A stretch of 64,000 bases of DNA from Amycolatopsis sp. GM8 (GTDB lineage: Bacteria; Actinomycetota; Actinomycetes; Mycobacteriales; Pseudonocardiaceae): positions 62,001-126,000 of the forward strand of contig NZ_JAJKFK010000013.1 in the NCBI RefSeq assembly GCF_021653975.1. Reading direction: 5' to 3'. The position numbers and the translations under genes were made by a program. How positions within the stretch are numbered: the first letter of the stretch is position 1; each line of letters opens with the position of its first letter. The notes beneath the pieces were generated by a model. That model was not told the origin of the DNA, searched no databases, and worked only from the letters and a program-made list of their open reading frames with translations. This document shows, one piece after another, positions 32 to 15,441 of the stretch.

Positions 32-2398
32 ATGAGCACCCTCTTTGATCTCCCTGCCGACAACAAGGCGTCCGCCCCCACCGGTCGCCATGCCGACCTG
101 CTCGCGGACCTCAACCCGGCCCAGCGCGAAGCGGTGACCCACGCCGGTGTGCCGCTGCTCGTCGTCGCGGGCGCCGGCTCCGGCAAGACACGGGTGCTGA
201 CCAGGCGGATCGCCTGGCTGCTCGCCGAACGCGGCGCCCAGCCGGGGCAGATCATGGCGATCACGTTCACCAACAAGGCCGCGGCCGAGATGCGGGACCG
301 GGTCAGCGAACTGGTGGGCCGGCGCGCCAACGCGATGTGGGTCTCGACGTTCCACTCGATGTGTGTGCGGCTGCTGCGCCGTGAGGCCAAAACCCTTGGC
401 ATGTCGTCGAACTTCTCGATCTACGACTCCGACGACACCCGCCGCCTCATCACGCTGGTGGCGCGGGATCTCGACATCGACCCCAAGCGCTACCCGGCGC
501 GCACGCTCGCGGTGCACATCTCGAACCTGAAGAACGAGCTGATCGACGCCGAGACCGCGAAAGAGAAGGCCACCAACGACCTGGAGCGCCGGGTCGCCGA
601 GGTGTACGTCGAGTACCAGCGGCGGTTGTCGCTGGCCAACGCGATGGACTTCGACGATCTGATCATGCGCACGGTCGAGCTGCTGCAGACCTTCCCGGAC
701 GTGGCCGAGCACTACCGGCGCCGCTTCCGGCACGTGCTGGTCGACGAGTACCAGGACACCAACCACGCGCAGTACACGCTGGTCCGCGAGCTGGTAGGAA
801 CTACGGTCACCGAATCCGATGTGGAGCCGGCGGAGCTGTGCGTGGTGGGTGACGCGGACCAGTCGATCTACGCGTTCCGCGGCGCGACGATCCGCAACAT
901 CGAGGAGTTCGAGCGGGACTTCCCGAACGCCCGCACCATCATGCTGGAGCAGAACTACCGCTCCACGCAGACGATCCTGTCCGCCGCGAACGCGGTCATC
1001 TCGCGCAACCCGAACCGGCGCGACAAGCGGCTGTGGACCGATTCCGGCGACGGCGAGCGGATCGGCGGGTACGTCGCGGACAACGAGCACGACGAGGCGG
1101 CCTTCGTGGCCGGCGAGATCGACGCGTTGTCGGACAAGGGCGAGGCCAAGTACTCGGACGTCGCGGTGTTCTACCGCACGAACAACCAGTCGCGGGTGTT
1201 CGAGGAGATCTTCATCCGGCTCGGCCTGCCGTACCGGGTGGTCGGCGGCGTCCGCTTCTACGAGCGGCGCGAAGTCCGGGACATGCTCGCGTACCTGCGG
1301 GTCATCGCCAACGCCGAGGACACGGTGAGCCTGCGCCGGATCCTGAACGTGCCCAAGCGCGGTATCGGGGACCGGGCCGAGGCGGTCATCGCGACGCATG
1401 CCGAGCGCGAGCGGATCTCGTTCTACGCGGCCCTGCGCGAGGCCGTCGACGGCAAGGTGACGCTGCTGAACCCGCGCTCTGCCAGGGCGATCACCGGTTT
1501 CATGGAGCTGCTGGACGGCCTGCGGGAACTGGCCGACGACGGCGTCGAGGTGGCGGACATCCTCGAGGCGGTGCTGGATCGCACCGGCTACCGCGCCGAG
1601 TTGGAGGAGTCCGACGACCCGCAGGACGCGTCGCGTGTCGAGAACCTGACGGAGCTCGTGACCGTAGCGCGGGAGTTCACCGAGGCGGCGGCCGAGCTGC
1701 CGCCGTCCGACGACGTCGACGCGGGCGCGCCCGAACCCGGGTCGCTGCCGGCGTTCCTGGAGCGGGTGTCCCTGGTGGCCGACGCCGACTCGATCCCGTC
1801 CCCGGAGGGCGAGGACGAGGAAGAGGACGCCGGCGTGGTCACGCTGATGACCGTGCACACGGCGAAGGGCCTGGAGTATCCGGTGGTGTTCTGTACCGGC
1901 TGGGAGGACGGCGTGTTCCCGCACATGCGGGCGCTCGGCGAGCCGGCGGAACTGGCCGAGGAGCGGCGCCTGGCGTATGTGGCGATCACCAGGGCGAGGG
2001 AGCGGCTGTACCTGTCGCGGGCGCTCGTCCGTTCGGCGTGGGGCCAGCCGATGACGAACCCGGCCTCACGGTTCTTCGACGAGATCCCGGCGGACCTGAT
2101 CGACTGGCGCCGCGAGGAGCCGGTCGCGTCGTCGGGCTCCCCGCGCGCGGCGACCACCTGGGGCCGGCGCTCGTTCGGCGAGTCGCGTTCGCCGCGGCCC
2201 GCGCCGGCCAAGGGCTGGCAGAACACGGCGGCGATGAAGCTCGACGTGGGGGACCGGGTCAGCCACGACAAGTACGGCCTGGGCACGGTGGTCGAAGCGC
2301 AGGGCGAAGGCCCGCGGGCCACCGCGACGATCGACTTTGGCGCCACCGGCAAGGTGAAGCTGATGCTGATCGGCAGCGTGCCGATGGTGAAGCTGTAG
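32..2398 (+). CDS. pcrA: ATP-dependent DNA helicase, UvrD1/PcrA type
   Basis: A superfamily 1A 3'-5' DNA helicase of 788 residues, the usual length. It unwinds DNA in nucleotide excision repair, replication restart and removal of RecA. The Q motif LNPAQREAV is at about 27-35 and Walker A AGAGSGKT at 46-53. The motif II loop DEYQDT lies near 237, [12 protein letters not shown] near 273, QNYRST near 307, and late motifs VHTAKGLE and AYVAITRAR near 608 and 655. The last 55 residues ([16 protein letters not shown] onward) form the Tudor-like tail that binds RNA polymerase in PcrA/UvrD. The ATG at 32 sits only some 9 nt after a -10 like element, so the mRNA is nearly leaderless. Gene order with sucCD and purNH matches M. 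tuberculosis uvrD1 (Rv0949). Confidence 0.96.
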
Positions 2399-2471
2399 CG
2401 ACCGCGCGAAACGGCTGGTTTCACCCGACCGGGGCGATCGTTCGGGTCGAGTCGCGGCCGCGCCCCCGAAA

Positions 2472-2494
2472 TTGTCGGACCCCTCCGCTATACC
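2472..2494 (+). promoter_or_regulatory. PafBC-type promoter element downstream of pcrA
   Basis: TTGTCG at 2472-2477 is followed after 11 nt by TATACC at 2489-2494. The arrangement is that of tTGTCRgtg-N8-TAnnnT except for the last base of the -10 (C for T). The same TTGTCGG core recurs before xthA. An 11-nt spacer is too short for an ordinary sigma-70 promoter, which favours the damage-type reading. A start would fall near 2500, inside the SOS box. Confidence 0.5.
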
Positions 2495-2532
2495 TGATCT
2501 CGAACACGAGTTCGAGCAGAGTGGAGGGGTCC
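2477..2532 (+). repeat. Nested inverted repeat enclosing the SOS box and masking a ribosome binding site
   Basis: GGACCCCTCC (2477-2486) and GGAGGGGTCC (2523-2532) are perfect reverse complements, enclosing a second stem CTCGAAC/GTTCGAG (2499-2505/2510-2516). The right outer arm contains the Shine-Dalgarno GGAGGGG for the ATG at 2537. In pcrA read-through RNA it would be paired; in RNA started near 2500 the left arm is missing and it is free. It may also act as a weak pcrA terminator, but no U-run follows. Confidence 0.6.
2500..2515 (+). promoter_or_regulatory. LexA/SOS box
   Basis: TCGAACACGAGTTCGA is a perfect match to the actinobacterial LexA operator TCGAAC-N4-GTTCGA, extended to 7-bp arms. 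It overlaps the predicted start point of the 2472-2494 promoter. No previously obvious damage gene follows; the nearest + strand start is ATG 2537. The second perfect box in this window controls the imuA' operon. Confidence 0.8.
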
Positions 2533-2614
2533 TGTCATGTGGAACGTCGAAAAGTCCCGGGTACGACGCTGGTTCGCCGGTCTGGCGCGTGCGATGGCCG
2601 GCTGGCGAGATCGG

Positions 2615-3448
2615 CTAGAGAGACACGCCCCGCGCGGCCAGCCACGGGCGCGGGTCGATCTTCTTCGTGCCGTTGAGCCAGACCTCGAAGTGCAGGTGCG
2701 GCCCGGTCGCCTGGCCGCGGTCGCCGATCTCGGCGATCTTCTGCCCGCACTTGACCTTCTGGCCTTCGTGCACCGAGAAGGTGTTCATGTGCCCGTAGAC
2801 CTGGATGGTCCCGTCGGCGAGCTGGATCCGCACCCACAAGCCGAATCCGCTGGCCGGGCCGGCGTCGATCACGGTGCCGTCGGAGGCCGCGTAGATCGGC
2901 GTGCCGATCGAGTTCGCGATGTCGATGCCGAAGTGGGTCACGCCCCACCGGGCGCCGAAGCCGGAGGTGAACGTCCCGCGCGCGGGCAGGCAGGTCTTCG
3001 GGCGGGCGGCCTCGTCGGCGGCGGCCTTCGCGGCCGCGGCGGCGCGCGCTTCGCGGTCCTGAGTTACCTGCAGGCTGGCGTTGAGCTTCTGCACCTCGGC
3101 GGACGCGTCGGTGTAGTGCACGGCCGGCACCAACTCGGGAGCGCCGGCGGGGGCGTCGCCGCCGAGGGCGAACGACGCGCTGGCGTCCGTGGCGTTGGCC
3201 AGTGGGGTCACGCCGTCGGAGTCGCTGTGGCCAAAGGACTGCAGGGTCTGCCCGGCCGCTGCGGCGGCGAAAGCGCCGGCCGCGACGGCGGCGACCACCA
3301 CACGGCCACGCAGCGCCGAAGACGGCGCCTGGAGTCGGTGTCCACCCCGGACACGGACGGCCGCACCGTCAAGCGCGTCCTCGAAATCCGGGGAAGGGCC
3401 TTCGCCGCCGGGGGAGCGGTATCGAGCCAAGTCAGGACCTTCCGTCAC
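2615..3448 (-). CDS. M23 family (LytM) peptidoglycan metallopeptidase
   Basis: A predicted membrane-anchored zinc endopeptidase of 277 residues that acts on peptide cross-bridges of the cell wall. One transmembrane segment lies at about 48-67, with a short cytoplasmic N-terminus. A coiled region rich in Ala and Lys (LNASLQVTQDREARAAAA) precedes the catalytic domain. Zinc ligands are H172 and D176 (HFGID) and H253 of the HLH motif (251-253); H220 of YGHM is the other catalytic histidine. All are present, so it should be active. The start is GTG 3448; its Shine-Dalgarno is weak. It corresponds in position to Rv0950c. Its 3' end faces the SOS-controlled start at 2537, so the gene could be opposed by damage-induced transcription. 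Confidence 0.9.
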   Translation of the reverse strand: MTEGPDLARYRSPGGEGPSPDFEDALDGAAVRVRGGHRLQAPSSALRGRVVVAAVAAGAFAAAAAGQTLQSFGHSDSDGVTPLANATDASASFALGGDAPAGAPELVPAVHYTDASAEVQKLNASLQVTQDREARAAAAAKAAADEAARPKTCLPARGTFTSGFGARWGVTHFGIDIANSIGTPIYAASDGTVIDAGPASGFGLWVRIQLADGTIQVYGHMNTFSVHEGQKVKCGQKIAEIGDRGQATGPHLHFEVWLNGTKKIDPRPWLAARGVSL

Positions 3449-3487
3449 TCGCGGGAGTCAGATCGCGGATCCGGGCGGGGGACCCGT

Positions 3488-3513
3488 GAGCCAACCTCGG
3501 GGGTGGTTGGCTC
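3488..3513. repeat. Inverted repeat in the M23 gene leader
   Basis: GAGCCAACC (3488-3496) and GGTTGGCTC (3505-3513) are perfect reverse complements with an 8-nt loop. On the minus strand the hairpin would lie about 40-65 nt upstream of the GTG of the M23 gene. It may be a leader structure or an operator; no U-run follows on either strand. Confidence 0.5.
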
Positions 3514-3661
3514 GATGTCCGCTTCGTGACCTGACCGTAATGGGGACCGGGGGACAGTAACGAAGGGAGGTCCATTTGGGCAAGACGCCACCGTTGTCTG
3601 GGCTGAACGTGTGAGCGGCGCGAGCCCGCTAGCAGCGACGATGACCGAACGTCGAACCAGG

Positions 3662-3680
3662 ATTACACCATTGGTGTGAT
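3662..3680. promoter_or_regulatory. Candidate operator, near-palindrome
   Basis: ACACCA-T-TGGTGT (3665-3677), extended with one mismatch to 19 bp, is a typical dimeric-repressor half-site arrangement. It lies about 90-110 bp upstream of the membrane protein start at 3766. No regulator gene is adjacent, so the ligand protein is unknown. Confidence 0.35.
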
Positions 3681-3765
3681 GTGGATTACGTTCATGTCGG
3701 AAATAGATCGACGACCGGCCGATCTGACTCGGTCACTGAACCGAGCCGGACCTTGCTAGCGTTCC

Positions 3766-15425: not shown

Positions 15426-15441
15426 TCGAACACCAGTTCGA
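15426..15441 (+). promoter_or_regulatory. LexA/SOS box of the mutasome operon
   Basis: TCGAACACCAGTTCGA is a perfect TCGAAC-N4-GTTCGA operator, extended to 9-bp arms (15423-15444). imuA', imuB and dnaE2 belong to the SOS regulon in many bacteria, and the site overlaps the predicted start point. Confidence 0.9.

Follow-up and report, generated by a model that had tools for sequence, protein, structure and literature searches.

Mycobacterial damage promoters of the recA type are under dual LexA and PafBC control and drive ordinary genes. In cis-antisense systems of the excludon kind a regulated transcript overlaps a gene on the opposite strand, and in type I systems such as TisB/IstR an SOS-regulated, hydrophobic toxin peptide is accompanied by an antisense antitoxin RNA. 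The locus described here was found in Amycolatopsis sp. GM8, in a window of 64,000 nucleotides (the whole stretch of DNA analysed; contig NZ_JAJKFK010000013.1, positions 62,001 to 126,000). It resembled the mycobacterial promoters in combining a PafBC core and a LexA box within one promoter, but no ordinary gene follows it in the clade to which the window belongs. As in cis-antisense systems, a regulated transcript is predicted to overlap a gene of the other strand, here the convergent gene for an M23 metallopeptidase. Unlike in those systems, the predicted transcript would be SOS/PafBC-driven and is apparently translatable in register. The SOS-driven leader with a strong Shine-Dalgarno sequence was reminiscent of the TisB/IstR type, though there was no stop codon near the start and the N-terminus, judged by eye, was basic and not a clear hydrophobic helix. 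No description of this pcrA-M23 unit was found in titles and abstract openings, among the matches listed, of the literature on LexA/PafBC promoters, antisense transcription and the actinobacterial SOS response. The features of the locus were as follows.

32..2398, + strand: pcrA (UvrD-type helicase), the upstream neighbour, stop codon at 2396-2398 (TIGR01073, 960 bits)
2473..2490, + strand: PafBC-type core TGTCGG-N10-TA, read from the sequence; TTGTCG at 2472-2477, an 11-nt spacer and TATACC at 2489-2494
2477..2532, no strand: imperfect inverted repeat centred on the LexA box, 26-nt arms, 77% complementary
2500..2515, + strand: LexA (SOS) box TCGAACACGAGTTCGA, 0 mismatches, overlapping the expected start point
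2523..2529, + strand: Shine-Dalgarno sequence GGAGGGG, read from the sequence; a G-rich Shine-Dalgarno lies near the same place in aligned relatives
2537..3529, + strand: reading frame of 330 codons from the SOS start codon, open through all of the M23 antisense and in register with the M23 codons
2615..3448, - strand: M23 metallopeptidase gene, convergent, the putative antisense target (PF01551, E=1.2e-31)

The elements reported in the initial annotation (TTGTCG-N11-TATACC, a perfect SOS box, a strong Shine-Dalgarno and ATG 2537, between pcrA and the convergent M23 gene) could be read directly, and we likewise found no ordinary gene downstream of the promoter in this genome, only the antisense strand of the M23 gene. 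The TGTCGG-N10-TA core is of the PafBC type. The consensus as worded in one source (PMC8151990) is TGTCGG-N10-TA-N3-T, and the window matched all of it except the final T, which is replaced by C; the complete consensus was present in certain relatives (e.g. L099 and L106). From its sequence and conservation we take the site for a PafBC-type damage promoter, which LexA would repress and PafBC would activate.

The outer arms of the inverted repeat, GGACCCCTCC and GGAGGGGTCC, pair the promoter spacer with the Shine-Dalgarno. The resulting hairpin appeared in the fold of an RNA containing the promoter and was absent if the RNA began at the LexA box. A regulatory hairpin hiding the Shine-Dalgarno was rejected, because the expected RNA start falls inside the repeat; the 5′ part of the expected RNA folded no better than shuffled sequences (z=0.15). 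Rfam gave no match at E<=1 in window positions 2300-3700.

The 8.16-Mb genome (22 contigs) contained six perfect LexA boxes, and the control, the pattern read in reverse, did not occur. A relaxed PafBC pattern, TGTCNG-N10-TA-N3-T, occurred at 56 places, against 22 for its reversal. Two LexA homologues, both above the family cut-off, were encoded (G000:C1:694556-695185 and G000:C18:435059-435667), together with two neighbouring WYL proteins at G000:C17:756916-758096, the arrangement that PafBC would have, which are putatively PafB and PafC. A second perfect box within the window, TCGAACACCAGTTCGA at 15426-15441, lay upstream of ImuA′ (NF058630, E=1.8e-52) and represents an ordinary SOS mutasome promoter. 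At G000:C12:466784-466820 (L169), a PafBC core was followed by a perfect LexA box with 3 nt between the TA and the box; there was no obvious repair gene directly behind, and an ORF resembling a helix-turn-helix protein by eye lay some hundreds of nucleotides downstream. In the part of PMC9380542 dealing with LexA ChIP in Streptomyces venezuelae, LexA is described as bound inside uvrD, with that gene not regulated.

The composite of a PafBC-like element and a perfect LexA box was found in 117 of 390 genomes of the family, spread over 25 of 46 genera; the window's genus had it in 18 of 19 genomes, and the reversed control gave none. When the 242-nt intergenic region was searched against 61 genomes, matches were obtained in 18, including its own genome, and mostly covered the promoter and box. 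L023, L025 and L026, whose matches lay outside the promoter module, were left out. The comparison was based on 107 composite loci, with 13 further matches left out. The position against M23 was conserved among them: 74 adjoined pcrA and/or M23, and 70 had pcrA upstream and a convergent M23 gene downstream. Composites elsewhere in the family preceded other genes: a DUF2786 gene (L092), a SAV_6107-like HEPN gene (L078; PF18726, E=1.2e-26) and, at L029 and L031, genes that look DnaE2-like by eye, for which the only PHP match was a sub-threshold one (L031, E=0.0094). Loss of the box and the ribosome-binding site in close relatives would have counted against the original proposal; both were kept in the aligned relatives, the latter as a G-rich Shine-Dalgarno.

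At 45 of the 74 loci beside pcrA or M23, a gene for a small protein, intact or decaying, was located behind the promoter. These loci have the same promoter in the same place as the window, but the gene is absent from the window's locus. The gene comprised roughly 80-160 codons, and its product showed no variation at A-W, H, C-x2-C, C and V-W across two alignments of 14 and 28 sequences. Three members tested had no Pfam or NCBIfam match, and a sequence search against solved structures returned one match only (E=0.086), not a close one. A scan of named genomes, requiring C[TSG]VW[QW]VA, recovered 47 loci with the small gene (L117-L163) from Amycolatopsis, Prauserella, Haloechinothrix, Actinophytocola, Thermocrispum and Qaidamihabitans; pcrA and M23 flanked the gene at 44 of these, and 44 had a box within one mismatch upstream. 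In an order-wide sample, counted regardless of genomic site, the protein was detected in 16 of 249 genomes at E<=1e-16, all belonging to the same family. Within the window's genus, the gene occupied the pcrA-M23 site in 9 of 19 genomes (E from 9.2e-32 to 7.1e-29). The initial annotation had argued that two damage signals would be wasted on nothing. That argument has a historical answer, since this promoter belongs to a small gene, which survives at its 3′ side in many relatives. The small CxxC gene was probably the ancestral occupant of the pcrA-M23 site, driven by this promoter in an ancestor of the Pseudonocardiaceae concerned.

The window's own genome carried two distant matches to the small protein elsewhere, the better of them at G000:C12:679122-679382 (E=1.1e-13) with no SOS box nearby. 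A truncated remnant in the window's reading frame, suggested by eye from the likeness of AGWRDRLERH to AAWQALLERH, was rejected: the small-protein profile scored the frame at E=2.1 (L007), no better than shuffled sequences, and the invariant AW, H, CxxC, C and VW positions were not reproduced. Decay of the gene was seen at four loci of genus g16: in L044 (G150) a TGA interrupts the frame and the start codon is gone, cysteines are missing from L060, and L022 and L048 carry frame shifts. All four retained the promoter and box.

Two side observations concern the gene-bearing loci. A GTGTG double start was present at 25 of the 39 named loci examined (L117-L162). Stops in the overlapping frame were counted at 38 of the 39, L125 being dropped for its doubtful start. 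They came to 0 where the double start was present (13.0 expected) and to 18 where it was lacking (3.8 expected); in the control frame the figures were 7 (15.1 expected) and 11 (8.0 expected). These counts are confounded by relatedness, and a second frame overlapping the small gene was not relied upon. In genus g16 (e.g. L047, L069 and L072) the stretch separating the small gene from M23 also held a conserved element that looks hairpin-like by eye. Its arms read GGCGCGCC, L072 and L044 show matched substitutions in them (GGCGTGCC/GGCACGCC), and it is perhaps a two-way terminator.

In nine of the 19 genomes of the genus the small gene was absent and the promoter kept (G000, the window's own, and G004, G006, G007, G008, G011, G014, G016 and G018). 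G015 was assigned to neither class, as it showed only an M23 match of 42% identity near a contig start. Among the nine, identity was 0.86 in the promoter module, against 0.29 and 0.32 in the upstream and downstream flanks. The 12 specified bases of the box were identical throughout (1.00) and the central N4 was at 0.50. Across the 22 pairs compared, pcrA and M23 fourfold sites differed by about 0.22-0.50. In a tree of pcrA and M23, rooted by eye with three loci from other genera and built on uneven pcrA pieces (45-566 codons in those genus genomes having one), the nine fell outside the gene-bearing clade, with some deep nodes weak (0.18, 0.72). Conservation of the module against near-random flanks points to purifying selection on the promoter, so that its product in the gene-less clade probably matters. 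These comparisons support a damage-type promoter and ribosome-binding site that would be selectively maintained and aimed into the M23 antisense.

A small peptide from ATG 2537 had been offered as one possible product. No defined small ORF was found there; the frame runs open for 330 codons to 3529, with 26 codons, or 78 nt, before the M23 stop. In the nine gene-less genomes the distances from start to M23 stop were 78, 93, 339, 111, 501, 414, 18, 30 and 18 nt, every one a multiple of three and stop-free. The same was true of another gene-less form in four g16 genomes (231, 240, 252 and 267 nt) and of eight g59 and two g60 members, the starts behind all these distances having been picked by hand after the frames were seen. 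Under an automatic start rule, the chosen start was in register and its frame crossed into M23 at 25 of the 28 gene-less loci. L087, L097 and L104 broke the rule, and in L104 a GTG two bases upstream, homologous to the frame of its relatives, is in register. The rule is blunt and unreliable for true starts, because 19 of 45 gene-bearing loci also passed it, often through a GTG two bases before the small-gene start. L103, which has a run of N and no M23 gene found, was excluded from the register counts.

Distances from the pcrA stop to the box fell 15, 5 and 7 into classes 0, 1 and 2 at 27 of the 28 gene-less loci. Inheritance contributes to the register, since a single register also prevails where the gene is present (37 of 45 loci). 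In the three clades g1, g59 and g16, counted by hand, 18 distinct distances imply at least 15 length changes, all in register where chance would give one in three, and these counts are not fully independent. Ahead of M23, over 6-167 codons, the frame held no stop at 21 of the 22 loci tested, though at many of them chance alone would be expected to leave the intergenic stretch open (shuffle probability 0.14-1.00).

With pcrA as internal control, fourfold divergence of M23 against pcrA was 0.197 against 0.230 in gene-bearing loci (36 pairs) and 0.347 against 0.365 in gene-less loci (22 pairs). A selected antisense protein of 330 amino acids was rejected, because the wobble sites of M23 evolve as fast as those of pcrA. 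For the stop and rare-codon tests, named loci presumed to duplicate genomes already in the set were omitted. In-register stops inside aligned M23 were not rarer in gene-less loci (6 of 27) than in the others (12 of 75). The run to the first stop was slightly longer where the gene is absent (Mann-Whitney p=0.029, kinship ignored). Rare codons were slightly fewer, at 9 of 973 against 47 of 2378 Leu and Ser codons in gene-bearing loci (Fisher p=0.037, kinship ignored); relative to expectation from pcrA usage, rare Leu and Ser codons stood at 9/16.2 in gene-less loci, 47/19.8 in gene-bearing loci and 11/8.9 in those without the double start. Together, these tests lent little or no support to selection against in-register stops within M23. 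If the frame is selected, it would thus be for entry into the M23 antisense and not for a sequence, since the antisense protein is not conserved and stops in M23 are not clearly avoided.

The transcript might instead code for an SOS peptide that is short and evolves fast, or for a longer, disordered protein that begins MWNVEKSRVRRWFAGLARAM, with the antisense extension incidental. We consider this unlikely. It would account for the strong Shine-Dalgarno, the ATG and the open frame ahead of M23, and differences among the g16 loci L041, L053, L062 and L064 do look coding (97/56/130 over the three codon positions; of the codons that differ, 90 do so synonymously and 118 nonsynonymously). In g59, however, five of the eight loci gave an even distribution (144/129/144) and 38 synonymous to 211 nonsynonymous differences, the window's frame had no Pfam match, and a peptide alone does not need register with M23. 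In the congeners L016, L019 and L024 the frame has no more than 6-10 codons ahead of the M23 stop; their transcript would be almost purely antisense, because the ATG lies 18-30 nt from that stop.

Alternatively, the small SOS gene was lost and the promoter merely persists as a relic. Decay of the gene in g16 and the lack of any trace of it above shuffle level in the window are in keeping with such a history. It is nonetheless an unlikely account, as nine divergent genomes retain every specified box base and a recognisable promoter and Shine-Dalgarno between near-random flanks, and the reading frame was kept despite many length changes. That the inverted repeat is a terminator or insulator ending the convergent pcrA and M23 transcripts is very improbable: the 26-nt arms, the hairpin in the fold of read-through RNA and the further hairpin-like element of g16 speak for it, but no T-tract terminator-like site was found at 2300-3600, the complementarity joins two separately conserved elements (promoter spacer and Shine-Dalgarno) and is by eye incomplete in several relatives, and TGTCGG, TATACC and the register are left unexplained.

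In the reading we favour, tentatively, DNA damage would switch on an antisense transcript that is translated and that lowers expression of the M23 wall peptidase, its transcription, translation and effect being deduced from the arrangement of the locus. In an ancestor, the pcrA-M23 interval would have held the small CxxC gene under the LexA/PafBC promoter. That gene is missing from the window's clade, which has retained promoter, operator, ribosome-binding site and start codon. A damage-induced transcript would then run antisense through M23, ribosomes from ATG 2537 could stay in register along some 300 of its codons and translation would shield it from Rho. Interference between convergent polymerases and/or pairing of sense and antisense RNA would lower M23 expression. 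The stronger proposal, which we regard as doubtful, is a checkpoint in which LexA and PafBC run the M23 antisense and selection keeps in-register translation, of whatever protein, so that the transcript stays elongating, the arrangement having arisen repeatedly after loss of the SOS gene.

Independently of the antisense reading, the comparison points to a family of small, Cys-rich, SOS-type proteins beside pcrA in several genera of Pseudonocardiaceae, and the three members tested are without a Pfam or NCBIfam model. If the antisense reading is true, the locus would be a cis-antisense route tying DNA damage directly to wall cleavage in actinobacteria, and a case where selection keeps the act of translating an antisense RNA and not its protein.
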